Source of the DNA: Chloropicon primus
Taxonomy: Eukaryota > Chlorophyta > Chloropicophyceae > Chloropicales > Chloropicaceae
Length of the DNA stretch: 64,000 nt
Reading direction: 5' to 3'
Assembly (NCBI GenBank): GCA_023205875.1
Contig: CP060754.1
Span: 1,674,001 to 1,738,000 of the forward strand
Made by a program: the position numbers and the translations under genes. The notes beneath the pieces were generated by a model, which was given only the letters and a program-made list of their open reading frames with translations, made no database searches and was not told where the DNA came from. Below are positions 4,371 through 42,443 of the stretch, piece by piece (the first letter of the stretch is position 1; every line of letters begins with the position of its first letter).

Positions 4371-4426
4371 CTGTCAAGAGGTAATATATACGATACGATT
4401 ATGGCTCCATGATTCTTGTTTTCAGC

Positions 4427-5365
4427 TTATTGGTACAGTTGGATGAGCTGGTCGCTCACCGCGGCCGGAGTGAGGACGCCGAGGTCCGTGATCAGGAGAG
4501 TGATGTTCTCGGGCGGCGTGTAGTCGTTCAGAGGCACGACGAGCTCGCTACTTCCTATTTCGACCTTCTCCGTGGCCATGGAGAGATCCCTCTGGTGAAG
4601 GGGATAAAGCCTCGAGAACTTGTAACTCTCCGCGGCAACGTACACGGGCTTCCCCTTCACTCCAGCGAGCAGGGTCATCTGGTACGTCCCCACCTTGTTG
4701 ATGATCCCGCCACTCTCCACGACGGCCTCCGCGCCGATCAAGACCATGTCGACCTCCTCGAGCCTGTGCGCGACCTGCGCATCCAGGATCATGGTGACCT
4801 GGATGTTCGCCCTCTCCAGAGCCTTGTACATTCGGAGCCCCTCCGTCCCGGGTTTCGACTCCACGACGATGACCGTGAAGAACTTTCCTTTGCTCGCCGC
4901 CGTCTCCAGCAAGTTCAGAATGACCGAGCTGCACCCGAGGACCATGACCACGCAGCCGCCGTGAAGGAACCTCTCCCCGAGCTCGGCTATCTTGGCCTTC
5001 GAGGCCAAGGATATCTCCGCAAATTTGTTGCCTCTGTCTATCAGGTGCTGCTTCAGGGCCTCGAAGTCGCTCACGTCCAGGGCCGTCGTCCTCGTCACGA
5101 ACCGGAGAAAGAGCTCGCTCGCCGCGGACACCGATATTGCCGTGGGATAGCTGCGCTTCAACTCCTCCGTCGAGGCGTGGAGGTCCTTCTCAAGCCCCAT
5201 CACCGTCGTCGCCGTCGACCGCTGTATCGCTCGGGTCAGCGTCCTTATCACGGCCACCGCCACAGTCACTTCCGTGCTCTTCTGCAGCTCCTCGTGCAAG
5301 TGCCGCGTCACCGTCCCCTGCACCGCCTGTCCCGCCATCCCACTCATAGCCCCCACGGCTGCCAT
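4427..5365 (-). CDS. EIF2B1: Translation initiation factor eIF2B subunit alpha
   Basis: The 312-residue product matches eIF2B-alpha along its length. Seen motifs include AVIRTL near the N-terminus, SELFLRFVTR, a Rossmann-like core with VIVVESKPGTEG, VLIGAEAVVESGGIINKVGT, YVAAESYKF and the C-terminal ITDLGVLTPAAVSDQL. The family forms the regulatory core of the decameric exchange factor for eIF2 and senses phosphorylated eIF2. The ATG at 5365 gives a length close to the human 305 residues; the frame is open to an ATG at 5437 but that stretch is Gly/Arg-rich and unlike the family. It is divergent from the SPC2 gene and convergent with the Mut7 gene 56 bp away. Confidence 0.92.
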   Translation of the reverse strand: MAAVGAMSGMAGQAVQGTVTRHLHEELQKSTEVTVAVAVIRTLTRAIQRSTATTVMGLEKDLHASTEELKRSYPTAISVSAASELFLRFVTRTTALDVSDFEALKQHLIDRGNKFAEISLASKAKIAELGERFLHGGCVVMVLGCSSVILNLLETAASKGKFFTVIVVESKPGTEGLRMYKALERANIQVTMILDAQVAHRLEEVDMVLIGAEAVVESGGIINKVGTYQMTLLAGVKGKPVYVAAESYKFSRLYPLHQRDLSMATEKVEIGSSELVVPLNDYTPPENITLLITDLGVLTPAAVSDQLIQLYQ

Positions 5366-21562: not shown

Positions 21563-24500
21563 TTAGTTTGTGGGTGGGTATGCTGTAGGTGGCGCACCGC
21601 CATATGCAGTCACTGGTTCACCGACATCAACCTGTTTGGTGTCCTTGATCATCTTCTTCTGCTTGTTGATCTTCTTGATGTACATCACAAGCGCTACGAG
21701 TGCGCACAGGGCAACAAAACCACCAACTGCTCCACCAATGGCAATCATGGTGTCATCACCACCAGAGGCACCCGAGAGAATCTCGACAACCGTTGAAGGT
21801 GGTGGTGGCGGTGGTGGAGGTGGGTTCTCCTTCTCTGGCGCTGGCTCTTGGAAGTTGAACACTGGTGGAGGTGGGGAAGGTGGTGGTGGAGGTGGGTATG
21901 CTGGCGGAGAGTACTGGACGATGAGGTACTCTCCCATGGCCTGGGACTTGCAAGTGACCTCCGAGTCAGTCTCTTCCACAATCTCCGTGCAAGGCTCCGA
22001 ATAGCCTCTTGGGCACGTCGTCCAGCCCTTCTTCACCTCAGATGTGTAACCAACCAAGTCACCAGAAATTGGGTCAACAAACATGCAGGTCCTCTTCTTC
22101 GTAGGATCCTTGGTCGTGGTTGGGAAAGTGATGTTAACATCAGCACCATTCGTAACCACGCCAATCCTGTTCTGAGAGATATCAGCCACACCGCTAATCA
22201 CTTCAACATTTGCAGCACCTGGCTCCAAGCTGATGCTCGAAATACCACCAAGGGATTTCACCAACAAGGTTGGATCTTTCTGGTAGTTCACCTTGTTCGT
22301 AATTGGGTTTGGACACTTGCTGCTCGAGGCGCACTTGTCACCAAAGTCGTCAGAAAACTGCACCTTGAAAGCTGGATCATCACTGGTGGTTTCCGTCTCC
22401 TGCAAAAGATTACGACGGGCTGTTCCTCCCAGTGCGGCGGCTCCGCCCAACACTTTTCCTCCAAGGGTGTTGTCATCATCCTTTGAGCCAATAATATCGA
22501 AAGCAGGGGTCGACAAAACCTTTGGCTTATCCAATCCGATAACGAAGTCACTGACAAGAGACTCTGTCACAGTAGCGATAGTCGTTTCGGTCTTCTCCTT
22601 CAGTTTTGCAGCAGCTTGGGCTTCCTGGGCTGTCACTGTGGCCAGTGGTGGAGGCGCAGGTGCAGGCGTTGTTGGCGCAGGTGTTGTTGGGGTGTCAGGT
22701 GAAGGTGTTGTTGGGGTGTCAGGTGAAGGTGTTGTTGGGGTGTCAGGTGAAGGCGTTGTTGGAGCAGGTGTAGGCGTTGTTGGAGCAGGTGTAGGGGTCG
22801 TGCTTCCTCCGCCCAGATCCACTTCAAAGGAAAGCTGAAGGGCCTGCGAAAGAGCATCCATTGTGTTCTGTGCCAAGTCCTCGTCAATATCACCCATCTG
22901 GGTGGAGGCCAGGAGGGTATCAACAGCAGTGGACACTGTATTAGCAGTTGCAGTCTCCTTTGACTTGGTGATTTCCTTCACAAGGTCGGTCACAGCGCCT
23001 CGTTGCTCTTTTGCTTCAGCGACATCCTCGGTGCTCGTGACACTCAAAGCATCCTTTGCAAGAGCAGCAAGATCTTCGTTCTTCTTTGCAGCCTCGGCCT
23101 TCACCTTCTCTGCCTCCTCTGCAGTTACTGTGGTCAGACCTGCTTCATACGTTGCTGCCATCTTACTCGCTGCTTCGAGGGTCGTAGAAATATCTCCACT
23201 CTGCTTAGCAGATTCGAGCTCGTTCTCGAGACTTGTCGTCAAAGCCGTGTCCAACTTGATTTCCTTGGTCTTAACCTCAACTTGGAAGGTTTGGCAGACC
23301 TGACTCTCGTAAGGGTCCACAGCACAGATGTAGAGCTCTTGCGAAGGCGCCTTCAAAGAGCTGAACACTCTCTTTGCGACTGGACTCTTCTCGAGTCTCA
23401 CCTTCTTGCCATTCCTCACCACACCCATGTGATACTCGAGGGTCTCGTCATCCTTGAAACCCTTTCCTTCCAAAGTGAACTTGGTCTGACCCAGGGCAAA
23501 ACCAGATGCAGGAGTAACGCTGATACAACCCGTACCTGTGGAAATGGTACAAGACGGTCTTGCATTAATTGGCACGGCCACTCTAGCAACACTCTTGCTA
23601 ACTACTCCGGCAACAGCTCTTTGGAAAGTAACTGTGAATGTCTGTGTCTGGCCAGAGACAAGCTTGGTCGCAGGAACGACCACCTTTCGGGTCACGTCAG
23701 GAAGGGTCGTCGTAACGCCTCCGCTCTGCATCGCCCAACTGTAGGTAACATCCTTGAAAGAGGTTGTTTGCGTGGCCTCGAGAACCAACCTCTTGCCAGG
23801 GTTGAGCTTCAATGGACAAGAAGGATCTGGGCAGACCACACCGTCGTGCACAAATCCAACTTTTCCTGTTGGTCTATCAACACTTGCCTCAACCACATTG
23901 ACAGTAAGAGATCTTGCTTTTGACCTCGTTCCCTTTGCGACAGTCACCCCGAAAGTGTAGGTTACTCCTCCCTCCAACATTCTTCCTGTTCCTCCTGATA
24001 CAGTTGGCTCAACAGTGTAATGGGTTCCATTCACTGCAGCCTTGTTCTTTCCACTGAAGCACGGCTTCGAGTCACTCCTCTTGCAAGTCCACTTGAAAAC
24101 CTTTGCTCCCTCGGAGTCGCTTGGATCATCAGGGTCAAAGGATCTTCCGGCGTTCAACACGAGTGCTTTGTCGTTCTGGAAGTCTCCGTTAGGGCCGACA
24201 AGGACCGCAACAAGGGGACTCTGCAAGGTTTGCAACTTGACCTTCACGGACGCCTTTGCGCCAGTCTTCGCTGTAGCAGTTAGAGTCATGCCGTAGGTAG
24301 CCCCTCCGACCATACCAGGTGCTCTTGCAGGAACACGCAAATCTTTCCTTGTGGCATTGAAGCCCTTGAATGTTTTTGCAGGATCATCAAAGCTCCATTG
24401 GTATGCGATGGAATCGCATACGGTGTCCTTGTCAACCTGGACCGCGACCTTCACACCCCGTGAAACCCGGAAGCGCTTTGTGGACCCTCCAGTGACCTTA

Positions 24501-27500
24501 ATTACGGGCACTGGGTCACTCAACCTCGAGAGTACGTGATGAGCTGACACGCTACCCATGAAATTAGTTGCCACAGCAGAGATATTGTACTTCTTTCCAG
24601 ATTCAAGGAGGGATCCTGGAATTGTCATGAACTCGTCGTACTGGAAGGGAGTTCCAATGAAGCCGACACACTCCTTCGTGAACAAGCATCCCGCGTCGTT
24701 ATGCGACGCCACAGCAGAGTGGTTCTCCACAAGTTCGACAAGGCTTGCATCCACAGGGGAACCATCCAATGTTTCAATCTTCCAGGTCAAAGCCATACCT
24801 CTCGAGAAGATGTCCGCGGGGAAAGCAATGACCTCTACATCCATGACGTCTCCATTGCAGTCAGCTCCGACTTCAGTGGGGCCAATAACATCCACTAGAG
24901 GTAGGTAGGGGTCAACTGCAGCCAGCACTTTCACTGCTGCAGTGGTATTGAACCCAGTCGAGGAGTACAAGTTGTTGACCATGTTTTGGACGCCCTCAGT
25001 GGCCTCTGGGAGGAACGCGATAGTATCTCCCGGAGTCATGGTGGCGCCCCATCCAAGGTATACCTCGAATACCTGGAGACCAGTCTGATGTTCCACGTAG
25101 CAACCCTCGCCAAAAAGAGTGCCTACTGTATCTTCTGCGTTCGCAAATAGACTTGCACAACTTTCGTACATATACTCTCCAAGCTCATCAGTTTGTGATT
25201 CAGTGTTCATCGTAATGACCACCGTGGTACCCGTGTCGGTGAACTTGGCCTCTTTCATGACTGCACTGTCTGCCATGCACATACCCTTTCCGATGGATTT
25301 GGCAGAAATTCCCACGGTACCAGCCGCCGAACTTGCACACTGGTAGAACATCAAATCTTCGGGGCCCTCCTTACACACCTGGTCCAAAGAAGCATCGCAT
25401 CCTCCTGATGCTGGGAATGACGTGTTTCTGTCGGGCAGGTCGCATATTCTCTGGTTGTAGTACGCAAGGTCCTCCTTAATGTAAGCATTATCGCAATAGT
25501 CCACGCACTTACCCATGCAAGAGCTGCATTCGTCGTATCCATTGTTCTTATAGCACTTGCAGGTCGTGGGACAATAGTCCCATTCATTTTCCCCATCACT
25601 ATCCCCCATTCCACAGCTGTTACCACCAGTGCACTGCTCGTCGAAGAAGCAAACTTCGCCAACGGCTTGTGTTGCATTGTATTCTACACCATGTGTCCAG
25701 TACCAATCGAGATGATCAGGAGCTTTGACCTCATTCTCCTTGGTTGGGGTGTAGTACTGCAAGCACATGTCGGTCGTATCGTCGCTCATGCATTCATGGC
25801 GGCAAAGATCCATCACAGGGCAAAGCACGTTTGGACGGTAAGCCACCTCTCTTGACCACTGAACAGTTTCGTATGCCTCTCGGCACTTCTCATAAGCGAC
25901 GTCCTTGCCTTCGCCCTTGCTCAACCACATGTCCTTGCACATGTCGAATACAAACCGGGGAAGGTCGTACTTGGCCACTGAAGAAAAGTCAGCTTCCTTG
26001 AATTTGTTTCTGCAAACATCGCAGTCTTGGCAGACATTTTGACAGCTGTCAGATATCTTGCAAATTCTCCTTCCACCGGCATTCTCAATGTAGTGGCAGG
26101 CAAACAAGTCGTCGCTTGCATCGTTGCAAATCTGTTCGTAATCCTCAACCGATTTGCAAGTTCCCGACAATCCAGACTGTCCTCCAATTGATCCACCAAG
26201 TTGCAGCAACTGTCTCAGAGGAGAACTTGACTGAAGACTTCGCCTCGAAGGGCCATCCTCCTCCTCGTTATCTCCTTCTCTGGCTCTCTGCCACGTATCA
26301 ATGCTCGACAAAATTGTCAAGTCGCTGACATAGTGCTGAATGGCTTGTGGGCACGAGTCCACAAATGCGTCAGAGATCTCTACAATGTCAAGGAAGGCTG
26401 TCAAGTTACCCGCGCAAGAGAATGGGTCTGCTGCGTTGTTCACCATGTCCACAATAACATTCGAGGAGTTCAGCGCTGCACAGGTAGCTTCCACACCCGC
26501 CCAAGCATCGAACATAGGCTTGCACTCAGGGACAGCACAAGAATCATAGGACGTGGAATTCAGGCCCTTCCAATCAATGGTAGTGCCGCAAGCGCCATCG
26601 GTCTGGCAGATCGCCAAAGATGGGTGCAGAAGTGTGCAGCCATACGACAGCACGCCAGTGGCAGGCTCAATCCAAGACTCCTTGCACGTGCAATTCTTCG
26701 ATGCACCTTCCAAGAGACCTTGGTATGGTTGATATTCTTCAGGAAGGCCACCATCACGGCCCTCGTCATCACCGCCTCCCAAGAACAACTCCAGGTCAGT
26801 CACGAAGCGACAGGACGGGTTCGCGTTACATGGCGCTTCCTCTGAGATGTGAGAGCATTCGTCGATGAATAGCTCGCACGAGGACTCCCAGCCGCAACCC
26901 TTGTCGAAAGTACACTTGTCTGGATTTTTGATTGGACAGCAAACGTCTCCCTTTGGACAAGTCTGCTCCTGACAAGATTTCTCAACCCTGCAAAACGACA
27001 TAATATCCGGATCACTTCCACAAGTCTCGACATCAATATCTTCGCAAGGGTCATTGGGCGAGATGCAGAAACCGTCTTGGTAAGAAGCACCTACCCACTC
27101 GCAATCCAATGATGAAGCGCAGACTGCACCAGAAAGAGGGGCACACGGGTCCTCCTTGATCTTGCACTTTGAATCGAAGAAGCACCCATCCTTAAGTGCG
27201 CAATTCTCCTCAGTGTTCGACTTGCCTTCCAGGCAGCACCTGTCTCTTGGATCGCACGCAGCCTCGGCCTTGTTGCAAGTCTCGCGGACAGAGCAAATGG
27301 AGTCCCCGCCCTCATTGGTGATTCTGTTGCATGCACGGCGGGACTTCCTTCCGGCAAGGCATGGATCTTGCTTCAAGTAGCAAGTTCCAGTATCTTCCTG
27401 GAACGCGCACTCCCTCAGAAGAGAACAGCCAAATGCATCGTAATCGTACTCGCTGCAATCCAGCATCTCACCCTTCAGGTAGCAGTCGAAGCCAGACTTG

Positions 27501-30500
27501 CACCCAGGAATCTTGCCACAGCCCTCATCAGCTCGTGTGAATCCTTCAGGGCAACATTGGCTAGACTCGTCACACCTGAGCGACTCCCAATCACGCAACT
27601 GTTCAACATCGTTCAAGAGGTATGCTTCACAAATCTTCGTGAAGGTCTTTGGACCGAATTCGGCCCTGCCACTCCTTGTCAGGCCTTGGAATGTTTCAAT
27701 GACATACTCGCAAGCATGGGCCTCGTCCCCGGAGTCACGGCATGCCTCTTCAACATCCTGACTAAGAATCTCAGGATTAGCAACGATATCCGCTTCGAGT
27801 TCTTGGCACCTGCTTTCGCCGTTAAGCCTGTCAAGCATGTAGTGTCTGCATTCTGACACGGTCACTTCTGCTCCCATGGTGTAACCTTCCTGGGCCATGT
27901 CTCCATATCTTGTTCTGAAGCCCGCAATGAGTTCGCAAGCCTCATCGTCTTCTTGGCACACGTCAGCCTCTGCTGCGGTGATGACAGAGCTGCAATCGCA
28001 AACACCAAATGGGCATGGACAAGGCTTTTCTCCGACAGTCAACTTGTCCACCAATCTATCCTTGATGGCATCGCAGACCAGGTCCTGTTTGGGGCTTAAG
28101 TCGAACTCGTCCCCACCTGCATCAAATCTTTGTGCAACTTCATCCTTTGCATCCTCCTTTGGTCCATAATGAACATTGCACCTCTCGTAGTACGAGCAGT
28201 AGGAAAGAGACTGGCACCCGTACTTATCTTCAGTAAGGTCGTGACAATCTTGCTTCAGCCCGCAGTAAGAATTCTCTGCCCTATCTTCGCTCTCGATGTC
28301 ACTCAACGAATCTTTGCAAATTTCGTAGTAGTTCAAAGCTGTGGTCTGGTTATATCCTTGGATGGCAGCAGAGATCAGAGTCCTCAGGACACCCTGATAG
28401 CATTCGTCACACCTGTCACAAATCTCGAACGATTCCGTTGCCTTGCTGAAAGCATACGAATCGAAATTATCCAAACACTCAAAAACTTCCCTCGCATTCG
28501 CCCTCATGCCCACGTTCGCCTTATCCTTCTTGGCTTTCTCTACGCATGCTTGAGGCATCGTCTGAAGAGAAGTGATCTTGCGCAGGCACTGCTCAACATC
28601 AATTTCTTCGACATCCAGGCCACACCTGTTATCTTCGAAGCAAGACGAACCAACATATTGGAATTCAGAGACGTACCTTTGGCATCCCGCTTCCTCGACC
28701 GTGCCATTGTTGGACTGAGGCTGTCTGAACTCAGACGAGTTGAACGCCTGCCCTGGAATTGCACTCAATTGCATCAGGGCCCTTGCGTTCCTTGCGTTCC
28801 TGCCCAACACCACGAGCTCAGCTTTTCCGCTGGCAAAGTTCACGTATTCGAGAAGTCTCCTACCCACGAATGAAGGAGGCAAATCACTACCCTGTGGAAC
28901 GTCACCACCTGGGAAACCTCCACTGGTTGGGTCGCCACCTGGGAAACCTCCGCTGGTTGGGTCGCCACCTGGGAATTCCCCTCCTGGCAATTTAACGACG
29001 TCGCTCTCAGCAAAGCAAGTAGACACCAATTTAAAGATGTCTCTCTGAGTTGAGCCAAAGAGGTACCCGAAGTCCGATTCTCCGCCGTTTCGGTAACCGG
29101 ACAGAAAATCGGTGCAGAGTCCCCAAACATTGTCGTCGTAAAATGTAAGCGAGCTCAGCAAATCCATACAGGTTGGGTTTGCGGCTTTAGTCTGCATCGT
29201 GGCACAGTCCGTTGCACTTGGGTCCTGAACCCCGCAGGCCGTTCCGAAGTTCTTGAAGAAGTCCATGACCCCCTGTGGGCAGTTTCCAGGTCCACCGTTG
29301 TTGCCTCCAGGGAGTCCTCCGTCGTTGTTGCCTCCAGGGAATCCTCCGTCGTTGTTGCCTCCAGGGAATCCTCCGTCGTTGTTGCCGCTCCCGGGGAATC
29401 CATCACTCTCGTCCTCGTCACCAAAGCACTGGTTCAGCAAAGAAAAGATTTCTTGGTTTTCTGGTGCGTAGATCAAAGTGAAGCAGTTCTCCCAGTCATC
29501 ATCACCAACTGACGACACTGAAGTAAGGAGAGATCCGCAAGTCGGGTTCGTGAGAGCCCTAGACTGTACAGAGCCACAGTCTGCTGTGCTTGGGTCCTGA
29601 ACCCCGCAGTTCGACTTGAAGTTCTTGAAGAAGTCTGTGATTGTCTGTGGGCAGGCGCCAGATCCACCGTTGTTGCCTCCAGGGAATCCTCCGTCGTTGT
29701 TGCCTCCAGGGAATCCTCCGTTGTTGTTGCCTCCAGGGAATCCTCCGTCGTTGTTGCCTCCAGGGAATCCTCCGTCGTTGTTGCCTCCAGGGAATCCTCC
29801 GTTGTTGTTGCCCCCAGGGAATCCTCCATCATCACCACCACTGAAGCACTTGCTAACAAGGTTGAAGATCTCCTGGTTTCCTGGTGTGAACAAGACGCTT
29901 GCGCAAGCGGTGAAGTCCAAGTCTTCAGATAGTGTCTCCTGAAGGCTGGTTGCACACACCGTATTTCCGATAACGCTAGCCTCTAGAGTGGAACAGTCAG
30001 TCGTGCTTGGGTTCTGAATCCCACAATCGGTCTTGAAGTTCCTGAAGAAGTCTGTGACCCCCTGTGGGCAGACTCCAGATCCACCGTTGTTGCCTCCAGG
30101 GAATCCACCGTTGTTACCATCGCTTGGTGTACCGTCTTGATTAAAGCATGACGTAACAAGCTGGAAGACATTCTGGTTTTCTGGTTGGAACAGAACGCTG
30201 GCACAAGAAGTCCAAGCGTTGTCGTCAAGATTAGCAAGGGTCTGAAGTCTGTTGCCGCAAGCTGGGTTTTCAGGGGAGAAGACAGCAGCTGTGAAAGACG
30301 AGCAGTCTGCTGTACTTGGGTCCTGAACCCCGCAGTCCGACTTGAAGTTCTTGAAGAAGTCTGTGACTCCCTGTGGGCAGACGTCAGATCCACCTGGGAA
30401 TCCACCGTTGTTGCCTCCAGGGAATCCACCGTTGTTGTTGCCTCCAGGGAATCCTCCGTTGTTGTTGCCTCCAGGGAATCCACCGTTGTTGTTGCCTCCA

Positions 30501-33500
30501 GGGAATCCTCCGTTGTTGTTGCCTCCAGGGAATGCGGCATTTGGATCATGCACCAAAAGCTCTGGTACTCCAAAGGCACAGATGGAGTCGGCTGCAGGCT
30601 CAGGGCACTCTAGGAACGGCTCGCCGTCTGGGTAACACTCATCGATGTACTGGAACAAGCGACCAGCAACCTTACTGACTTCGGACAAGTCCCCATAGCA
30701 CTCTTCGCCCTTCAAGTAGACATTTATCATCAAGTCGCCAAAGGCGAGTCGGCATTGTGGTTTGTCTTCAATCTCCCATTCCAAGTCACCGCACTCGGGC
30801 GAGGCCGAAATATTTTGGAAACAGGCAGTTCCCATATCCTTGAAAAGGTTTCTGAAACGGTTGTGCTCTGGAGTACCCTGAACAATGCCGCATGCAGCAA
30901 CAGGAGATGCATCTTCATCCTCTTCTGGCTCTGTGAAGTAGTCCTCTAGCTCGTCTCCTGCGCAAACAAGACCCATCTGCACAAGTGCCAAATCTTGCAA
31001 CTCGGTGCTGGAATCAATGATCACATCTGCCAAGCAGTTACCTCTTGGGAGCTTGTCGTCAAGGTCAGCAATCGCTGTTTTGCACTCCTCGGAGAGTTCC
31101 TCGAAATCAGAATTATAGCGGTCACAGCCCTGGACGGCGGCTTCCTCAAGGTCAGTCTTGGTCCAGGTCTCGTTGCAAGCTGTCTTCACGCCAGACAGAA
31201 GCTGAGTCAAGACCTTCTTCGCACTGCTGCAAGTCTTGGCATCATCCAGCACAATGCTGTTTGAGCGCATACAAGTCTGTTTCTGTTCGGGCGTGGAGGA
31301 TGGCGGGCACATGTGTGCCCTCTTGCATATTCCAGCCACGCTAGTGACGTAATCCAAATCCATCGTTGACGCTTTTCCGATGGTCTTGCACACCTCCATC
31401 AATTCCCCACCCGCGTGTGCGTGAGGATCGTCGTGAGTCATCCATTCGCAATGCTCTGAGGAGTTACAGGAGTCCTTGTCAGTGTGGTGACAGTCAATAT
31501 GCTCGTTTTGGAGACACTCCTGATGGAAGTTGCACTGGTCGCTAGAGTCGCACTCCTCTTTGGTGTCCTTCTGGCAGCAAGGATCATACTGGTCACAGTA
31601 ATTCTCCCAATCAATCTGGCAAGACTCGACCATTTCGCAAGCTTCCTTTCCATCTATCTTGACGCTGCGGCAGGCCTCCTCGTCGTGGTAGCCCATGCTG
31701 CAGTCATAATTGAAGCGGTCGTAAAGGCCGTTGTTGAAATCCTTCTTGAGCCTGCATTCGCTGGACACCTGGCAATTGGACTTCTTTCCACACTCAGCGA
31801 CGAGCTCCCAACCCTTTTTAGAGCTTGGGACATAACACTCATTATAATGGTCCTGCTGATTGCTGTGATCTCTCTCGCACTTTCCTCTCATTCTGCATCT
31901 CCTATCGCCATTTGCGTCAGTGAGCTTCTCACAGTCTACTCCTCCGTCGTAACAGTACCTGAAGCTGCAAGAAAAGCCCTCTTCCATATTGTTCGTAGTC
32001 TCGTTGTAATAGCTGTACCTGTAGGCCAAGCAATTCACGTTTGCATTGCATTCAGCCTCGGTCTTGAAGCCTCCGTGCTCGCACATGCTCGTGTTATGCT
32101 GGTCATACATCTCGTAATCAGAGAACCTTGGAGCACAGTTGTACCTGTAGTTGCACTCTGAGTAGGAATTGCACGTATCATCCTCGTACTCGCAGCATCT
32201 CACCGGTTCCTTAGTACCCTCGTCGTCCTCCGAGTCAGAATGTTCGTCCTCCGAGTCGGATGGGTTGCAACTCGCGAGGGCCTGGTATTCTGAAATAAGG
32301 ATCGACAAATCGTTGAGGGAAGCGGCGACATCCGAACTCGCATCTTCGAGAAGCGACCCCACTTCCTTGCTGCAAGACTCGATCTCTGCCTTGGACAGTT
32401 CCGGTATGCTGCTCAAGAGAAGTGCACACTGGTAGTTCATCTCCGCCTTAATTTCGATGCTTTCGCAAGTCTCCTTTTCGACGTCATCAACCTGGCAAGC
32501 AATCTCGAAGTCTGACGCAAATTGGACCAACTCATTGACAGGGCAGTCCGTGTTGTTTTCGGTGTCGGGGCCCATGTCGGGGTACATGTCGGAGCCCATG
32601 TCGGGGTACATGTCGGAATACGAGCCGTCACCCATACCGCCCCCTGGGTACATGTCATGAGGGTATCCATCACCATGGTGGTTATCGTTGGGGCAGATGC
32701 CATACTCGTGGTCCAGTTCGCACTCAAAGGTGGCGTTCCACGCGTCAACCGTGAATTGGTGGTTTTGGCCAAGAGGCCACTTGGGGCTACTGTTCGTCCA
32801 TTCAGATTTCCTGAGGAAGCAGTTTTCAGCGCTTTCGCAGGTATTGACGTCCTTGCTGCTTCTGCACAGCAAACGAGCAGTTTCCTCCTCGGTGTAGTTC
32901 CTCATGGCGAACTTGTTCATCAAGCAATACTCTCCATCAAGGTTAACATCCTTGCAAGGACCATACATGTCAAGGCCAGACGTTCTGTTCTGGGCATAGA
33001 AGCATTGCCAAAGATGAGACGCAAGCTGTGTGTGGTTCCTGCGGCCGTCAAACGAGGATGCCACCTGCCCACAGTATCCAATCTTCACCTGGCCGTACTC
33101 CTGACCCTGCCCTGCTCTTACATAACCGACAATCGCGTCCCTGCATTTGACGCTCTTCTCCCCTGCCTTAACGAGGGTCTGGCAGCCATCCTGTGTGAAG
33201 TCCTGAAGCCCACAGTCGTCAATGATAGCATCTGTCTTCACCAGGGTGACATTGAGTTCCCGATCGCACTTTTGATCATCCCAAATAGGGTGCACTTCAA
33301 CGGGGCCCACAGTACCGTTATACAGGCAGAATTCGTAAGGATTCGCGTTATCACCGTAGTAGACACAATTGCCTCCCAACTGCATGTTCTTTCTGCTGAA
33401 GCACCTGTCAATCAGCGACCAGACGTTTTGGTGAACTTCGCTGCCATTCACTTGTGTATAGAAGAGTGCTGAACCGCAAGGATCGATACTTGGAAGCTTA

Positions 33501-36500
33501 TGGATGCCCAATAACGATGTCTGGCACTCCGGATTGACTTCGACAAGAGATTTGAACTCCTCACACGTCGCACTCTGCAAGTCTGCATGACTGAAGCAAG
33601 TATCGCCGACGCTATCAGTCCAGTTCAAAATCGCAGTCTTTGCACAACGTTCTGGGATGTACGAGACGTTGTTGTACTCCAAGTATTGCTTGCCAAAAAG
33701 GCAGGGGTACCTGTTCGAGTTCTCGCAATAAGTAACTGGACTACCGCTATCTCCATCCTCGGACGCCCAGACGGTATCCGAGCAATGTTCTACGTGGTCC
33801 TTAATCTCTACATGGAACAGGGACGAGTTGCGAATTCCGGCATGAGCAGGAATCTCGAAATCCAGTTCCTCGTCAAAGAAGTCACCGCAAACCTCGGGAA
33901 TATCCAGACCGCCCTCAAGGATATCCTTCCAAAGCTTAAGGCAAGCTGCCGCGTTTGCCGCGTTACTTCCGTTTGGGTCCACAGACTCAGCGTAAACATC
34001 GCACGAAGTCTCGTTGGTGAGGGAGGTGATGCCGCAAAAGCTGGTGAAGTTCCCAATAAAGTCTCTCATCGCCTCCACAGGGCACTCGCCCTCAGGGCCG
34101 AAACTAGAGCCATCAAGCGGGATGGTGCCAAAGAGGCACAGTCCCTCGAGGTAATCCGGAATGTCATCAGATGGTCCATCGTGGTCCAGAAGTTTCCTAA
34201 GACTCGAGGCAGCATTGCTGCCAGAAGCTTCTCTGAGGAAGATTTGCCCAATCTTTGCGGATGCCCCCCTCGCCCTGGAGTATTCTTGGAGTCTGCGACC
34301 AAAGCCAGCAGGGAAATCACCACCCTGTGGGAGACCGGAGTGGTCGCCGCCATGGAATCCTCCGCTGGTTGGGTCGCCACCTGGGAACCCATCATCATCC
34401 TGGTCATTCTCATTATCAAAGCAGCGTTGCATCAATCCAAAGGTCGCCTGGTTCTCTGGCTGGAACAGAACATTGAGGCAGTTCTGCCAATCACTGTCAC
34501 CGTACGAGTCAAGCGACGTAAGCAAGTTTGCACAGGTTGGATTTGTGAAGAGACTAGCCGTCAGAGTGCCACAGTCCGTTGTACTTGGGTCCTGAACCCC
34601 GCAGGTCGTTCCGAAGTCCTTGAAGAAGTCTGTGATCCCCTGTGGGCAGACTCCAGATCCACCGTTGTTGCCTCCAGGGAGACCTCCGTCGTTGTTGCCT
34701 CCAGGGAATCCTCCACTGGTTGGGTCGCCACCAGGGAATCCTCCGCTGGTTGGGTCGCCACCTGGGAACCCATCATCATCCTGGTCATTCTCATTATCAA
34801 AGCAGCGTTGCATCAATCCAAAGGTCGCCTGGTTCTCTGGCTGGAACAGAACATTGAGGCAGTTCTGCCAATCACTGTCACCGTACGAGTCAAGCGACGT
34901 AAGCAAGTTTGCACAGGTTGGATTTGTGAAGAGACTAGCCGTCAGAGTGCCACAGTCCGTTGTACTTGGGTCCTGAACCCCGCAGGTCGTTCCGAAGTCC
35001 TTGAAGAAGTCTGTGATCCCCTGTGGGCAGACTCCAGGTCCACCGTTGTTGCCTCCAGGGAGTCCTCCGTCGTTGTTGCCTCCAGGGAATCCTCCGTTGT
35101 TGTTGCCTCCAGGGAATCCTCCGTTGTTGTTGCCTCCAGGGAATCCTCCGTCGTTGCTGCCACTGTCCTCATCATCCTCAAAGCACTGAGAAATCAAACC
35201 AATGATCTGCTGGCTCTTAGGCTGGCTCAGCACGCTGCCACAAGCCTGAGTAACGTGGTCAGGAATATCACTGACGCTCTGAAGGAGGCTTTGACACTGT
35301 GGATTGGTGTAAACCATCGACCGGAGACTTTGGCAGTTAGAAACGCCGCCGCAGTCTTCCTCGAAGTCGTCAAAGAAATCCCTGAGGAAGCTCGGGCAAG
35401 AGCCTGAATCGAATTCATCGGAACCACCGTTGCACGGGCTTATCACACCCTGAGGAAAACAAGAGTCCAGAACAGACCCTGTGCGTCTAACCAATTGAGC
35501 CAAGCTTCTCCTTTCCTCGTCCGCATCAGTGAAGCAGTGCTGCCCCAGGAAGGAAGTGGAGCGTTCGGTTATGTTTGCGACCTCAATGAATTGACGTCTG
35601 CATAGCCTGTCACCCTCAACGTTGTCTCTCAATTCCCTGCAAGGGTTGTCGCTGTCCAAGGCATCCTCCAAGTCACAGTCGTTTGCCATGTCCTCGAAAA
35701 GTTCCCAAAAGCCTTCTGGTGCTTCGCAACCATACGATGAGCCGGGATAATCGGGCTCGTCGTCGTTGTCATCAAAGCAACTCGCCATAAGCTGGAAGAT
35801 CTCAGCGTTTCCTGGCTCGGTCAGCACGTTGGCGCAGGCGCCCCAAGCGTTCTCGGGAACATTACGAACGGACTCCAGTCTGCTGGCGCATAGCGTGTTG
35901 GAGAAAGCGACATTAGTTAAAGTCGCACAGGTTGTTCCGCTGGGGTAATTGATGCCACAGTCAGACTTGAAGTTGGCAAAGAACTCGGTGACTGCGTATG
36001 GGCAATCTGTAACGTTGCCGCTCCCGGGGAATCCATCACTCTCGTCCTCGTCACCAAAGCACTGGTTCAGCAAAGAAAAGATTCCTTGGTTTTCTGGTGC
36101 GTAGATCAAAGTGAAGCAGTTCCCCCAGTCATCATCACCAACTGACGACAGTGAAGTAAGGAGAGATCCGCAAGTCGGGTTCGTGAGAGCCCTAGACTGT
36201 ACAGAGCCACAGTCTGCTGTGCTTGGGTCCTGAACCCCGCAGTTCGACTTGAAGTTCTTGAAGAAGTCTGTGATTGTCTGTGGGCAGGCGCCAGATCCAC
36301 CGTTGTTGCCTCCAGGGAATCCTCCGTCGTTGTTGCCTCCAGGGAATCCTCCGTTGTTGTTGCCTCCAGGGAATCCTCCGTTGTTGTTGCCTCCAGGGAA
36401 TCCTCCGTCGTTGTTGCCTCCAGGGAATCCTCCGTCGTTGTTGCCTCCAGGGAATCCTCCGTCGTTGTTGCCTCCAGGGAATCCTCCGTTGTTGTTGCCT

Positions 36501-37426
36501 CCAGGGAATCCTCCGTTGTTGTTGCCTCCAGGGAATCCTCCGCTGGTTGGGTCGCCACCTGGGAACCCATCATCATCCTGGTCATTCTCATTATCAAAGC
36601 AGCGTTGCATCAATCCAAAGGTCGCCTGGTTCTCTGGCTGGAACAGAACATTGAGGCAGTTCTGCCAATCACTGTCACCGTACGAGTCAAGCGACGTAAG
36701 CAAGTTTGCACAGGTTGGATTTGTGAAGAGACTAGCCGTCAGAGTGCCACAGTCCGTTGTACTTGGGTCCTGAACCCCGCAGGTCGTTCCGAAGTCCTTG
36801 AAGAAGTCTGTGATCCCCTGTGGGCAGACTCCAGATCCACCGTTGTTGCCTCCAGGGAGACCTCCGTCGTTGTTGCCTCCAGGGAATCCTCCACTGGTTG
36901 GGTCGCCACCAGGGAATCCTCCGCTGGTTGGGTCGCCACCTGGGAAACCTCCGCTGGTTGGGTCGCCACCTGGGAAACCTCCGCTGGTTGGGTCGCCACC
37001 TGGGAATTCCCCTCCTGGCAATTTAACGACGTCGCTCTCAGCAAAGCAAGTAGACACCAATTTAAAGATGTCTCTCTGAGTTGAGCCAAAGAGGTACCCG
37101 AAGTCCGATTCTCCGCCGTTTCGGTAACCGGACAGAAAATCGGTGCAGAGTCCCCAAACATTGTCGTCGTAAAATGTAAGCGAGCTCAGCAAATCCATAC
37201 AGGTTGGGTTTGCGGCTTTAGTCTGCATCGTGGCACAGTCCGTTGCACTTGGGTCCTGAACCCCGCAGGCCGTTCCGAAGTTCTTGAAGAAGTCCATGAC
37301 CCCCTGTGGGCAGTTTCCAGGTCCACCGTTGTCGCCACCTGGGAATTCCCCTCCTGGAAATTGGCCGCTTGCTCCCGCAATAAGCGAGGCAGCAAGAAGT
37401 GCTAGAAAAGCAACAGCTTTATTCAT
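21563..37426 (-). CDS. Giant modular cell-surface protein: Cys-rich modules, REJ-like region, GAIN/GPS-like segment, single membrane span
   Basis: One intronless frame encodes 5287 residues. It opens with a signal peptide (MNKAVAFLALLAASLIAGASG). At least 11 copies of a roughly 85-95-residue module follow, in two blocks (about 38-1130 and 2432-2812), with cysteines in CPQG, CGVQ, DC, NPTC, a C after Trp, and CF. They are joined by GGFPGGNN or GGFPGGDPTS spacers. Long Cys-rich stretches without spacers fill 1130-2290 and 2850-3900. Residues about 4170-4720 resemble the polycystin REJ region (beta-sandwich units, then a CISVTPASGFALGQTKF-type segment). A Thr/Pro stalk (4876-4926), a GPS-like end (two Cys pairs, then VTCKSQAMGEYLIVQY), a poly-Pro stretch, one helix (about 5223-5245) and a short tail finish it. 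The GPS cleavage triad His-Leu-Thr is not seen. Adhesion or recognition is inferred; whole-protein function is unknown. Confidence 0.85.
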   Translation of the reverse strand: MNKAVAFLALLAASLIAGASGQFPGGEFPGGDNGGPGNCPQGVMDFFKNFGTACGVQDPSATDCATMQTKAANPTCMDLLSSLTFYDDNVWGLCTDFLSGYRNGGESDFGYLFGSTQRDIFKLVSTCFAESDVVKLPGGEFPGGDPTSGGFPGGDPTSGGFPGGDPTSGGFPGGDPTSGGFPGGNNDGGLPGGNNGGSGVCPQGITDFFKDFGTTCGVQDPSTTDCGTLTASLFTNPTCANLLTSLDSYGDSDWQNCLNVLFQPENQATFGLMQRCFDNENDQDDDGFPGGDPTSGGFPGGNNNGGFPGGNNNGGFPGGNNDGGFPGGNNDGGFPGGNNDGGFPGGNNNGGFPGGNNNGGFPGGNNDGGFPGGNNGGSGACPQTITDFFKNFKSNCGVQDPSTADCGSVQSRALTNPTCGSLLTSLSSVGDDDWGNCFTLIYAPENQGIFSLLNQCFGDEDESDGFPGSGNVTDCPYAVTEFFANFKSDCGINYPSGTTCATLTNVAFSNTLCASRLESVRNVPENAWGACANVLTEPGNAEIFQLMASCFDDNDDEPDYPGSSYGCEAPEGFWELFEDMANDCDLEDALDSDNPCRELRDNVEGDRLCRRQFIEVANITERSTSFLGQHCFTDADEERRSLAQLVRRTGSVLDSCFPQGVISPCNGGSDEFDSGSCPSFLRDFFDDFEEDCGGVSNCQSLRSMVYTNPQCQSLLQSVSDIPDHVTQACGSVLSQPKSQQIIGLISQCFEDDEDSGSNDGGFPGGNNNGGFPGGNNNGGFPGGNNDGGLPGGNNGGPGVCPQGITDFFKDFGTTCGVQDPSTTDCGTLTASLFTNPTCANLLTSLDSYGDSDWQNCLNVLFQPENQATFGLMQRCFDNENDQDDDGFPGGDPTSGGFPGGDPTSGGFPGGNNDGGLPGGNNGGSGVCPQGITDFFKDFGTTCGVQDPSTTDCGTLTASLFTNPTCANLLTSLDSYGDSDWQNCLNVLFQPENQATFGLMQRCFDNENDQDDDGFPGGDPTSGGFHGGDHSGLPQGGDFPAGFGRRLQEYSRARGASAKIGQIFLREASGSNAASSLRKLLDHDGPSDDIPDYLEGLCLFGTIPLDGSSFGPEGECPVEAMRDFIGNFTSFCGITSLTNETSCDVYAESVDPNGSNAANAAACLKLWKDILEGGLDIPEVCGDFFDEELDFEIPAHAGIRNSSLFHVEIKDHVEHCSDTVWASEDGDSGSPVTYCENSNRYPCLFGKQYLEYNNVSYIPERCAKTAILNWTDSVGDTCFSHADLQSATCEEFKSLVEVNPECQTSLLGIHKLPSIDPCGSALFYTQVNGSEVHQNVWSLIDRCFSRKNMQLGGNCVYYGDNANPYEFCLYNGTVGPVEVHPIWDDQKCDRELNVTLVKTDAIIDDCGLQDFTQDGCQTLVKAGEKSVKCRDAIVGYVRAGQGQEYGQVKIGYCGQVASSFDGRRNHTQLASHLWQCFYAQNRTSGLDMYGPCKDVNLDGEYCLMNKFAMRNYTEEETARLLCRSSKDVNTCESAENCFLRKSEWTNSSPKWPLGQNHQFTVDAWNATFECELDHEYGICPNDNHHGDGYPHDMYPGGGMGDGSYSDMYPDMGSDMYPDMGPDTENNTDCPVNELVQFASDFEIACQVDDVEKETCESIEIKAEMNYQCALLLSSIPELSKAEIESCSKEVGSLLEDASSDVAASLNDLSILISEYQALASCNPSDSEDEHSDSEDDEGTKEPVRCCEYEDDTCNSYSECNYRYNCAPRFSDYEMYDQHNTSMCEHGGFKTEAECNANVNCLAYRYSYYNETTNNMEEGFSCSFRYCYDGGVDCEKLTDANGDRRCRMRGKCERDHSNQQDHYNECYVPSSKKGWELVAECGKKSNCQVSSECRLKKDFNNGLYDRFNYDCSMGYHDEEACRSVKIDGKEACEMVESCQIDWENYCDQYDPCCQKDTKEECDSSDQCNFHQECLQNEHIDCHHTDKDSCNSSEHCEWMTHDDPHAHAGGELMEVCKTIGKASTMDLDYVTSVAGICKRAHMCPPSSTPEQKQTCMRSNSIVLDDAKTCSSAKKVLTQLLSGVKTACNETWTKTDLEEAAVQGCDRYNSDFEELSEECKTAIADLDDKLPRGNCLADVIIDSSTELQDLALVQMGLVCAGDELEDYFTEPEEDEDASPVAACGIVQGTPEHNRFRNLFKDMGTACFQNISASPECGDLEWEIEDKPQCRLAFGDLMINVYLKGEECYGDLSEVSKVAGRLFQYIDECYPDGEPFLECPEPAADSICAFGVPELLVHDPNAAFPGGNNNGGFPGGNNNGGFPGGNNNGGFPGGNNNGGFPGGNNGGFPGGSDVCPQGVTDFFKNFKSDCGVQDPSTADCSSFTAAVFSPENPACGNRLQTLANLDDNAWTSCASVLFQPENQNVFQLVTSCFNQDGTPSDGNNGGFPGGNNGGSGVCPQGVTDFFRNFKTDCGIQNPSTTDCSTLEASVIGNTVCATSLQETLSEDLDFTACASVLFTPGNQEIFNLVSKCFSGGDDGGFPGGNNNGGFPGGNNDGGFPGGNNDGGFPGGNNNGGFPGGNNDGGFPGGNNGGSGACPQTITDFFKNFKSNCGVQDPSTADCGSVQSRALTNPTCGSLLTSVSSVGDDDWENCFTLIYAPENQEIFSLLNQCFGDEDESDGFPGSGNNDGGFPGGNNDGGFPGGNNDGGLPGGNNGGPGNCPQGVMDFFKNFGTACGVQDPSATDCATMQTKAANPTCMDLLSSLTFYDDNVWGLCTDFLSGYRNGGESDFGYLFGSTQRDIFKLVSTCFAESDVVKLPGGEFPGGDPTSGGFPGGDPTSGGFPGGDVPQGSDLPPSFVGRRLLEYVNFASGKAELVVLGRNARNARALMQLSAIPGQAFNSSEFRQPQSNNGTVEEAGCQRYVSEFQYVGSSCFEDNRCGLDVEEIDVEQCLRKITSLQTMPQACVEKAKKDKANVGMRANAREVFECLDNFDSYAFSKATESFEICDRCDECYQGVLRTLISAAIQGYNQTTALNYYEICKDSLSDIESEDRAENSYCGLKQDCHDLTEDKYGCQSLSYCSYYERCNVHYGPKEDAKDEVAQRFDAGGDEFDLSPKQDLVCDAIKDRLVDKLTVGEKPCPCPFGVCDCSSVITAAEADVCQEDDEACELIAGFRTRYGDMAQEGYTMGAEVTVSECRHYMLDRLNGESRCQELEADIVANPEILSQDVEEACRDSGDEAHACEYVIETFQGLTRSGRAEFGPKTFTKICEAYLLNDVEQLRDWESLRCDESSQCCPEGFTRADEGCGKIPGCKSGFDCYLKGEMLDCSEYDYDAFGCSLLRECAFQEDTGTCYLKQDPCLAGRKSRRACNRITNEGGDSICSVRETCNKAEAACDPRDRCCLEGKSNTEENCALKDGCFFDSKCKIKEDPCAPLSGAVCASSLDCEWVGASYQDGFCISPNDPCEDIDVETCGSDPDIMSFCRVEKSCQEQTCPKGDVCCPIKNPDKCTFDKGCGWESSCELFIDECSHISEEAPCNANPSCRFVTDLELFLGGGDDEGRDGGLPEEYQPYQGLLEGASKNCTCKESWIEPATGVLSYGCTLLHPSLAICQTDGACGTTIDWKGLNSTSYDSCAVPECKPMFDAWAGVEATCAALNSSNVIVDMVNNAADPFSCAGNLTAFLDIVEISDAFVDSCPQAIQHYVSDLTILSSIDTWQRAREGDNEEEDGPSRRSLQSSSPLRQLLQLGGSIGGQSGLSGTCKSVEDYEQICNDASDDLFACHYIENAGGRRICKISDSCQNVCQDCDVCRNKFKEADFSSVAKYDLPRFVFDMCKDMWLSKGEGKDVAYEKCREAYETVQWSREVAYRPNVLCPVMDLCRHECMSDDTTDMCLQYYTPTKENEVKAPDHLDWYWTHGVEYNATQAVGEVCFFDEQCTGGNSCGMGDSDGENEWDYCPTTCKCYKNNGYDECSSCMGKCVDYCDNAYIKEDLAYYNQRICDLPDRNTSFPASGGCDASLDQVCKEGPEDLMFYQCASSAAGTVGISAKSIGKGMCMADSAVMKEAKFTDTGTTVVITMNTESQTDELGEYMYESCASLFANAEDTVGTLFGEGCYVEHQTGLQVFEVYLGWGATMTPGDTIAFLPEATEGVQNMVNNLYSSTGFNTTAAVKVLAAVDPYLPLVDVIGPTEVGADCNGDVMDVEVIAFPADIFSRGMALTWKIETLDGSPVDASLVELVENHSAVASHNDAGCLFTKECVGFIGTPFQYDEFMTIPGSLLESGKKYNISAVATNFMGSVSAHHVLSRLSDPVPVIKVTGGSTKRFRVSRGVKVAVQVDKDTVCDSIAYQWSFDDPAKTFKGFNATRKDLRVPARAPGMVGGATYGMTLTATAKTGAKASVKVKLQTLQSPLVAVLVGPNGDFQNDKALVLNAGRSFDPDDPSDSEGAKVFKWTCKRSDSKPCFSGKNKAAVNGTHYTVEPTVSGGTGRMLEGGVTYTFGVTVAKGTRSKARSLTVNVVEASVDRPTGKVGFVHDGVVCPDPSCPLKLNPGKRLVLEATQTTSFKDVTYSWAMQSGGVTTTLPDVTRKVVVPATKLVSGQTQTFTVTFQRAVAGVVSKSVARVAVPINARPSCTISTGTGCISVTPASGFALGQTKFTLEGKGFKDDETLEYHMGVVRNGKKVRLEKSPVAKRVFSSLKAPSQELYICAVDPYESQVCQTFQVEVKTKEIKLDTALTTSLENELESAKQSGDISTTLEAASKMAATYEAGLTTVTAEEAEKVKAEAAKKNEDLAALAKDALSVTSTEDVAEAKEQRGAVTDLVKEITKSKETATANTVSTAVDTLLASTQMGDIDEDLAQNTMDALSQALQLSFEVDLGGGSTTPTPAPTTPTPAPTTPSPDTPTTPSPDTPTTPSPDTPTTPAPTTPAPAPPPLATVTAQEAQAAAKLKEKTETTIATVTESLVSDFVIGLDKPKVLSTPAFDIIGSKDDDNTLGGKVLGGAAALGGTARRNLLQETETTSDDPAFKVQFSDDFGDKCASSSKCPNPITNKVNYQKDPTLLVKSLGGISSISLEPGAANVEVISGVADISQNRIGVVTNGADVNITFPTTTKDPTKKRTCMFVDPISGDLVGYTSEVKKGWTTCPRGYSEPCTEIVEETDSEVTCKSQAMGEYLIVQYSPPAYPPPPPPSPPPPVFNFQEPAPEKENPPPPPPPPPSTVVEILSGASGGDDTMIAIGGAVGGFVALCALVALVMYIKKINKQKKMIKDTKQVDVGEPVTAYGGAPPTAYPPTN
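28890..28985 (-). repeat. 30-bp coding tandem repeat (GGFPGGDPTS) in the giant gene, inner array
   Basis: About three copies of a 30-bp unit encode the ten-residue spacer GGFPGGDPTS. The same unit recurs at 36885-37005 near the gene's 5' end. Confidence 0.85.
28923..29301 (-). repeat. Inner copy of a roughly 379-bp block repeated near the gene's 5' end (36954-37332)
   Basis: Reading base by base I saw no difference between this block and the one 8,031 bp to the right. It encodes a whole Cys-rich module (CPQGVMDFFKNF form) plus spacer edges. Such identity across third codon positions means recent duplication or gene conversion, not selection on protein alone. Confidence 0.8.
29655..29835 (-). 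repeat. 24-bp coding tandem repeat (GGFPGGNN), about 7 copies
   Basis: Units of 24 bp encode GGFPGGNN followed by N or D (AAC/GAC changes). Copies differ at single bases. Sister arrays lie at 29285-29400, 30395-30535, 35040-35155 and 36297-36550. Confidence 0.88.
30395..30535 (-). repeat. 24-bp coding tandem repeat (GGFPGGNNN), about 6 copies
   Basis: This array opens the second block of Cys-rich modules. All but the outermost units carry the NNN form, so the array looks freshly homogenised. Confidence 0.85.
34354..34767 (-). repeat. Module-plus-spacer block present three times in the giant gene
   Basis: This block and 36532-36945 show no difference by eye over about 414 bp. A third copy at 34735-35037 matches over its first 303 bp and then diverges at CCAG(A/G)TCC. 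Each encodes one Cys-rich module (CPQGITDFFKDF form) with its acidic tail (ENDQDDDGFPGG). Confidence 0.8.
36297..36550 (-). repeat. 24-bp coding tandem repeat (GGFPGGNN), about 10 copies
   Basis: This is the longest spacer array in the giant gene. Third-block residues alternate N and D. It separates two Cys-rich modules near the N-terminus. The length in multiples of 24 bp keeps the frame under copy-number change. Confidence 0.88.
36885..37005 (-). repeat. 30-bp coding tandem repeat (GGFPGGDPTS), outer array
   Basis: About four copies of the 30-bp spacer unit lie between the first and second Cys-rich modules. Confidence 0.85.
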
Positions 37427-40963: not shown

Positions 40964-42443
40964 ATGGGGAGGACGACGAGGAGGGCAACCTGGACGGGTG
41001 GGGTGGTCATGGCCGTGGCCTTGATGATGGCGCTGGCGTGCCTGGCGAGGGCAGACGATGGGCCTGGTGGGGAAGGGAGTGGTGGAGATGACCACGCGAA
41101 GAGGAAGCCACACTTTGTGTTCGACTCGAGCATCGTGCTCATCTTCACTGTCGCGACGGGGACTCTCGTGCTCGCAGGATTGTCTGCGCGCCTGCAAGCA
41201 AGGTGAGCCCCTCCTACAGCATTTGCTTTTCAATTTGTCGGCTGGGCGGGGAACTCAACTCTCGAGGTCGCGTCCTCTTAGGAGGAGGACGCGAAAATAA
41301 TCCCGCGCCCACGCGCCCTCGTCCAGATGACTTTGCTTTCGCCTGCTTTGCCTGCTGGAAGCCCCGGCGGTTTGCTGACAACCTCCCCTGCTCCCTCTTG
41401 TTTCACTTTCGTGTTTCCCCTTCAGGAAGGAGATGGCCAGGCTGAGGCAGAAGCTGACCAGTGGTCTGGGGGAAGGCGGTGGAGCGCCAGCCGAGGAGGA
41501 GGAGCCCACCCTGGTTTTGAGCGAGAAGATGGCCGTCTTCATCGTCATCCAGGCGACTTGCGGTCTCCTGATCATGTACTTCCTTCTCAGCAACATCTTC
41601 TTCAAGATAATCCTCGTCTTCTATGCCCTGATCTCCACGCAGGCCATCTGGGTCCAGGCCACATTCCTGTTCGAGTACCTGAGCACAAAGCGTAGAATGC
41701 CATGGATGGAGAGGAGCATCAACTTGCCGCTGCTCGGAAGCTGCCAGGTCTACCAGCTCGCCTGCCTCGTTCTCGGGCTCGCGGTGAGCGTGACGTGGGC
41801 CGTCGTGAGGACCCGGGCCAACTGGGCTTGGGTGCTGCAAGACGTGTCTGGGATCTGCATCATTCTCACCATTCTGGCTTTTCTCAAGCTGCCCAACTTG
41901 AAGATAGCGTGCATATTGCTGCCGCTGATCATGATGTACGACGTCTTCTTCGTTTACATCCAGCCCCTTATCTTCCACAACGAGTCGGTCATGAAGAAAG
42001 TGGCGACCGGTGGATCGACGCACGAGATCCTCCCCATGGCCTTGATCCTTCCGAACCTGGGAACGCCTGGGGCCTACTCCATGCTGGGGTACGGGGACAT
42101 CGCTTTGCCTGGCCTGCTCCTGGTGTACGCGGCCAGCTTCGACGAGGTGCACAGGCTGGGGGGGGCCCTGAAGTCCTACTTTTGGATGGAGCTGGCGGGT
42201 TACGTGCTTGGGCTCCTGTGTACTTACGGCGCGCTTGCCCTGGACATCGGGGGGCAGCAAGGTCAACCGGCGCTTTTGTATCTCGTCCCAACGACTCTGG
42301 TCCCGATCCTGGTCGCCAGCCACGTCAGGGGGCACCTTGGGGACATGTTTTACTCCAACTTGGCCTTCTTGGACGACGCCCAGGGCGGCGTCTCGGGTCA
42401 CGGGGGCGGCGCGGAAGACAGGGAGCTCCTCCTGGCAGACTGA
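40964..42443 (+). CDS. SPP: Signal peptide peptidase-like intramembrane aspartyl protease, 2 exons
   Basis: Exons 40964-41202 and 41426-42443 (223-bp intron, GTGAGC...CAG) give 418 residues. A signal-peptide-like start (VVMAVALMMALACLARA) is followed by about nine membrane spans. The catalytic pair is clear: MMYDVFFVY in one span and LGYGDIALPGLL in the next, with the QPALLYLVP motif after it. The family cuts leftover signal peptides and other type II segments inside the ER membrane. There is no PA domain, so it is closer to SPP/SPPL3 than to SPPL2. The C-terminus lacks a KKxx-type signal (ends LLLAD). Confidence 0.9.

Follow-up and report, generated by a model that had tools for sequence, protein, structure and literature searches.

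Gene and domain architecture

The window analysed here is a 64,000-nucleotide stretch of the genome of the green alga Chloropicon primus RCC138 (contig CP060754.1, positions 1,674,001 to 1,738,000; genome of 17,584,162 bases in 20 contigs), and the subject of this report is a minus-strand open frame within it, 21563..37426, of 5287 codons from ATG plus a stop. The encoded protein joins arrays of six-cysteine (6-Cys) modules to a REJ domain and, close to a single C-terminal membrane helix, a region that is best read as GAIN-like but has lost the residues of the cleavage triad (Table 1). Cysteine makes up 5.3% of the protein (281 residues).

A first-pass annotation of this DNA, which gave no strand, had described a single open frame of 5287 residues in a tiny alga, with a signal peptide, 11 or more Cys-rich modules and spacers, a REJ-type region, a GAIN/GPS-like part whose Cys pattern lacks the cleavage triad, a Thr/Pro stalk, one C-terminal helix and a short tail. 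Most of this was borne out. Two elements stood in part: the signal peptide as a hydrophobic, signal-like start (MNKAVAFLALLAASLIAGASG), judged by hydropathy and reading of the translation rather than by a signal-peptide program, and the GAIN/GPS part as a GAIN-like fold in a low-confidence model, with no Pfam match to GPS (PF01825).

The REJ domain matches PF02010 with E 1.2e-30 over nearly the full length of the profile (12-449 of 452; 106.9 bits against a gathering score of 25), and on this sequence match the protein can be placed among the REJ domain proteins. Protein searches gave four public proteins, P0002 to P0005. One of them, P0004 (5158 amino acids), is already named 'REJ domain-containing protein [Chloropicon primus]' at NCBI and follows the same frame with 0 mismatches, except that it begins at M44 and residues 4845-4930 are absent. 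The stretch cut out (window 22637-22894) is 258 bases in frame with a GT start and an AG end, and was probably called an intron in the public annotation. However, the homologue P0002 retains it in frame, with 35 of 53 aligned residues of the Thr/Pro stalk identical; therefore the stretch is taken here to be coding and the gene to have no intron. Preference was given to the longer model, in which the signal-peptide-like start is also present. A chance frame is excluded because P0002 is 61% identical over the last 1287 residues.

Table 1. Features of the giant REJ gene and protein, in window coordinates.
Feature	Residues	Position	Strand	Basis
Whole open frame, giant REJ surface protein	5287 + stop	21563..37426	-	Open reading frame; agrees with P0004 save start and one removed stretch
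Signal-peptide-like N-terminus	1-21	37364..37426	-	Hydropathy, reading of translation; no signal-peptide program
6-Cys module 1	39-128	37043..37312	-	Profile; 270/270 nucleotides (nt) identical to module 17
First [FL]PGG spacer block between modules, 27- and 30-nt tandem units		34247..37042	-	Repeat and motif search
6-Cys module 2	201-277	36596..36826	-	Profile; 231/231 nt identical to modules 7, 8
6-Cys module 3	381-457	36056..36286	-	Profile; 228/231 nt identical to module 16
6-Cys module 4	475-551	35774..36004	-	Profile
6-Cys module 6	677-749	35180..35398	-	Profile
6-Cys module 7	800-876	34799..35029	-	Profile; nt identical to modules 2, 8
6-Cys module 8	927-1003	34418..34648	-	Profile; nt identical to modules 2, 7
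Second Cys repeat kind, B1 and B2	1744-1814, 1950-2011	31394..32197	-	Profile; units are seeds, scores hold by construction
Second [FL]PGG spacer block		28817..30571	-	Repeat and motif search
6-Cys module 14	2350-2428	30143..30379	-	Profile
6-Cys module 15	2453-2528	29843..30070	-	Profile
6-Cys module 16	2592-2668	29423..29653	-	Profile; 228/231 nt identical to module 3
6-Cys module 17	2716-2805	29012..29281	-	Profile; 270/270 nt identical to module 1
Second Cys repeat kind, B3-B5	3291-3351, 3397-3458, 3496-3556	26759..27556	-	Profile; units are seeds, same caution
Cys-rich and REJ region conserved in Ostreobium P0003	3937-4661	23444..25618	-	Alignment, E 3.9e-41
REJ domain	4338-4752	23171..24415	-	PF02010, E 1.2e-30
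Six predicted helices, GAIN subdomain A-like, overlapping end of REJ match	4727-4867	22826..23248	-	Low-confidence model
Thr/Pro stalk, within stretch absent from public annotation	4876-4930	22637..22801	-	Public model, P0002 alignment
GAIN subdomain B-like beta-sandwich	about 5002-5175	21902..22423	-	Predicted model, fold matches
GPS triad position, A5163-M5164-G5165 instead of HL(S/T)	5163-5165	21932..21940	-	Model, alignment
Pro-rich juxtamembrane stalk	5174-5213	21788..21907	-	Translation, alignment
Single C-terminal membrane helix	about 5227-5249	21680..21748	-	Hydropathy, P0002 alignment
38-residue tail, 33/38 identical in P0002		21566..21679	-	Alignment

Cysteine-rich modules of the outer region

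A profile seeded with seven modules found 18 module stretches in the protein, 11 strong (98-123 bits) and seven weak, although 10 of the 11 strong modules are identical to one of the seeds and only module 16 was found independently. The strong copies represent eight distinct protein sequences; in module 2 the cysteines are spaced 14-9-12-17-18. Between the modules lie spacers built of 27- and 30-base tandem units; they carry 48 [FL]PGG motifs, of which 28 fall in residues 1-1060 and the other 20 in residues 2281-2880. Modules 1 and 17 are identical though 8 kb apart, and module pairs other than 1/17, 2/7/8 and 3/16 are far diverged. Among seven modules and one further module from contig C7, the proportion of nonsynonymous differences (pN) is below that of synonymous differences (pS) in 27 of 28 pairs and equal to it, to two decimals, in the remaining one. 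Identical modules amid far diverged pairs, together with pN below pS, thus suggest recent intragenic copying or gene conversion, combined with selection for the protein.

The AlphaFold2 model of the module is all-helical and confident (predicted local distance difference test score, pLDDT, 89.3; predicted template modelling score, pTM, 0.76). The families compared with its sequence include elicitin (PF00964), and it has no credible Pfam match and no clear match among chains of the Protein Data Bank, which does not prove a new fold; the module may be a new extracellular domain. Single-module queries located it at two further places in the same genome, the second query finding only the one on C7. 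That copy (80 bits by profile; G000:C7:264861-265100) is part of an ABC transporter frame, with the membrane domain on one side of it and the last helices on the other; in our reading the transporter is of ABCG type, with the module in an outer loop. The other, a diverged copy (32 bits; G000:C11:646682-646918), belongs to a 775-residue protein whose start is signal-like and which has long stretches rich in Pro and a single C-terminal helix. The profile found no module in P0003, and none in P0002, which covers only the part from residue 3321 on.

Membrane-proximal region

At the GPS position the protein keeps the Cys...Cys-x3-triad layout, and the triad itself reads AMG. The same AMG is present in P0002, with KLG in P0003 and HLS in the polycystin-1-like protein described below, which is the only one of the five REJ giants in the genome to match GPS in Pfam. 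The model of this region, six helices followed by a beta-sandwich, is of low confidence (pLDDT 41.3), and the best listed fold matches of the sandwich are GAIN domains of adhesion G-protein-coupled receptors (Foldseek E 0.18). The best reading of the region is therefore a GAIN-like fold whose cleavage triad is missing, a reading that comes from the fold rather than from a sequence match and that the model supports but does not prove. Like the GAIN domain of adhesion receptors such as the uncleaved BAI2, it would form a juxtamembrane sandwich; unlike them, the giant protein has no seven-helix part and its triad is lost. The stalk adjoining the membrane contains the motif PPPPPPSPPPP, and the helix (near residues 5228-5246) is followed by the short tail. 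No Pfam match to PLAT or to channel families was found in the protein. With no GPS match by Pfam, no PLAT and one C-terminal helix rather than 11, it does not show these traits of the polycystin-1 family.

Relatives and other REJ giants

The match to P0002 reaches back to residue 3321, and 91 of 91 aligned cysteines are kept. More distant is P0003 of Ostreobium quekettii (PKD/REJ-like, 1341 amino acids; 26% identity over 62% of the query), which shares the upstream Cys-rich part, the REJ domain, a GAIN-like end and one C-terminal helix, but is far shorter and has a Pro/Glu-rich stalk. Conservation follows a gradient: the outer parts diverge most, and the membrane-proximal part is kept in relatives. 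In a REJ tree of eight rows, P0003, P0002 and the giant protein (C1) grouped with support 96/96, in a midpoint drawing with long branches and three of five inner branches open.

The giant protein does not stand alone: the genome holds at least five REJ giants, and these five occupy 0.53% of its streamlined 17.6 Mb. Starting at the first ATG of each open frame, the other four measure 6356 (C2), 6516 (C9), 6700 (C5) and 6301 (C19) residues. Only the protein at 21563..37426 is matched by P0003, and P0005 matches none of the five. The C5 protein (G000:C5:541329-561431) is polycystin-1-like, with filamin repeats, REJ, GPS, PLAT, several helices and an IQ-like motif just below the cut-off. It shares with polycystin-1 and the giant protein a large ectodomain, REJ and the GAIN/GPS position; its filamin repeats, above-cut-off GPS, PLAT and IQ-like motif have no match in the giant protein. 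The vegetative cells of the alga that encodes it have no flagella. The genome also contains a PKD2-type channel candidate (PKD_channel, G000:C11:583190-583846, E 2.2e-34), and weaker PKD_channel matches lie on C5, C13, C4 and C2.

The C2, C9 and C19 proteins resemble the giant protein in two respects: REJ lies close to the C-terminus, and there is one strong C-terminal helix. To this C2 and C9 add a Pro-rich stalk and a signal-like start, and C19 three weaker internal hydrophobic peaks. They differ in cysteine content (0.8-1.1% versus 5.3%) and in their outer parts, which carry laminin-G and cadherin-like domains in C2 and cadherin-like and filamin-type domains in C9 and C19. Some domain matches in these three are named GEX2 (plant gamete adhesion) and overlap filamin-type repeats; nothing is drawn from the name.

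The first-pass annotation had stated that REJ and GAIN, where known together, precede an 11-span or channel domain. For REJ with GPS this does not always hold: SpREJ1, SpREJ8 and SpREJ9 of sea urchin have one predicted membrane segment, all SpREJ proteins except SpREJ10 are reported to have GPS, and some likewise lack PLAT or the 11 helices (PMC1934368). A single helix alone is thus not new, as these proteins share REJ (partial in SpREJ8 and SpREJ9), the GPS region and the one helix. SpREJ1 differs in its length (1450 amino acids) and C-type lectin domains, and the available text of PMC1934368 mentions no 6-Cys module arrays or Pro-rich stalk in SpREJ proteins. REJ is unmentioned in the main texts, as distinct from the supplements, of two Chloropicon genome papers, and searches of the open-access literature for REJ in green algae or Chloropicon showed no title or abstract on the giant protein. 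It is a real, unusual member of a wider REJ group, whose most original parts are the lost cleavage site and the 6-Cys module, which is confidently predicted to be all-helical and recurs in a transporter frame and in another protein with a stalk.

Proposed function and alternatives

REJ and GAIN are typical of receptors. We consider it somewhat more probable than otherwise (roughly 60%) that the giant protein acts at the cell surface as a type I, single-pass receptor or adhesin whose GAIN-like base cannot be cleaved, probably in recognition or adhesion. The two arrays of helical modules on flexible FPGG spacers would form a multivalent outer head, the long Cys-rich part a disulfide-braced arm, and REJ with the GAIN-like domain the base, while the Pro-rich stalk would cross the wall or glycocalyx. 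Through its conserved tail the protein could dock a cytosolic partner and signal. Because the triad is lost, the outer part should remain covalently tied to the membrane, and binding or pull would be transmitted by tension and not through release of the outer part. The protein could bind a partner cell, another organism, or wall or glycans of the alga itself; a role in mating is possible. Several of the alternatives overlap in part with this receptor reading, since its ligand options include mating and the alga's own wall.

The alternative that survives best, although unlikely, is a structural tether that pins the plasma membrane to the wall, with REJ/GAIN as a rigid foot and no specific partner recognition. 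The Chloropicon wall is described as three-layered (PMC6731263). A Pro-rich stalk adjoins the membrane, and the second module protein also bears long Pro-rich stretches. However, the domains are those of receptors, the 33 of 38 tail residues identical to the homologue's exceed what we would expect of a passive anchor, and the module in the transporter frame would be left unexplained.

A gamete recognition receptor, like SpREJ1 or the Ectocarpus male-gamete REJ protein, would be a special case of the receptor reading, and a rather doubtful one. REJ proteins act in sea-urchin sperm (PMC1934368); the Ectocarpus REJ and GPS protein, with 6-7 helices, is reported as male-gamete specific with signs of positive selection (PMC4700764); and genes for meiosis, together with a nearly complete set of flagellar genes, are present in Chloropicon, although sex has not been observed (PMC6731263). 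The divergence of the outer parts would fit, but many surface proteins have outer regions that evolve fast. A HAP2 family search reached at best 12.2 bits, below the cut-off, and the control genomes likewise gave none above it. Quite unlikely, too, is a broader proposal, in which one class of REJ receptors in chlorophytes has abandoned cleavage at the GAIN domain and bears tension in a covalently locked form; their heads, built from a new 6-Cys helical domain homogenised by within-gene recombination, would differ in size between strains and serve self or partner recognition in an alga whose sex has never been seen.

Improbable is a polycystin-like sensor that, in partnership with a PKD2-type channel, would gate the entry of calcium in response to binding or shear: PKD_channel matches above the cut-off are present, the best on C11, and REJ and GAIN belong to polycystin-1, but the giant protein has neither a PLAT nor a channel match and the C5 protein is the better polycystin-1 candidate. 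Very improbable is an artefact, with several genes fused or the stalk an intron. In its favour, near-identical blocks up to 8 kb apart can confuse assembly and the public model removes 258 bases. Against it, the frame is single and open, P0002 has the stalk in frame, and the lengths of the spacer repeats are divisible by three; the assembly, moreover, is reported to run from telomere to telomere, the exception being one end of chromosome 1, to which the window belongs (PMC12301720). Mis-assembly is also unlikely because the identical frame is public at NCBI, although from the same assembly and so not independent.

The occurrence of a polycystin-1-like protein and single-span REJ receptors together in one picoplankton alga means that the divide between a sensor that is cleaved and a tether that is not could be studied outside animals. 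The set also provides surface proteins that are candidates for a part in cell recognition, in a lineage with sex unobserved.

Sequence context

The GC content of 21563-37426 is about 51-54%, versus about 57-62% in the flanks, and GC at third codon positions is 0.57 in the giant gene versus 0.72-0.79 in the four other REJ giants. About 4 kb beyond the start of the gene, at window 41433-42443, lies a frame resembling signal peptide peptidase (PF04258).
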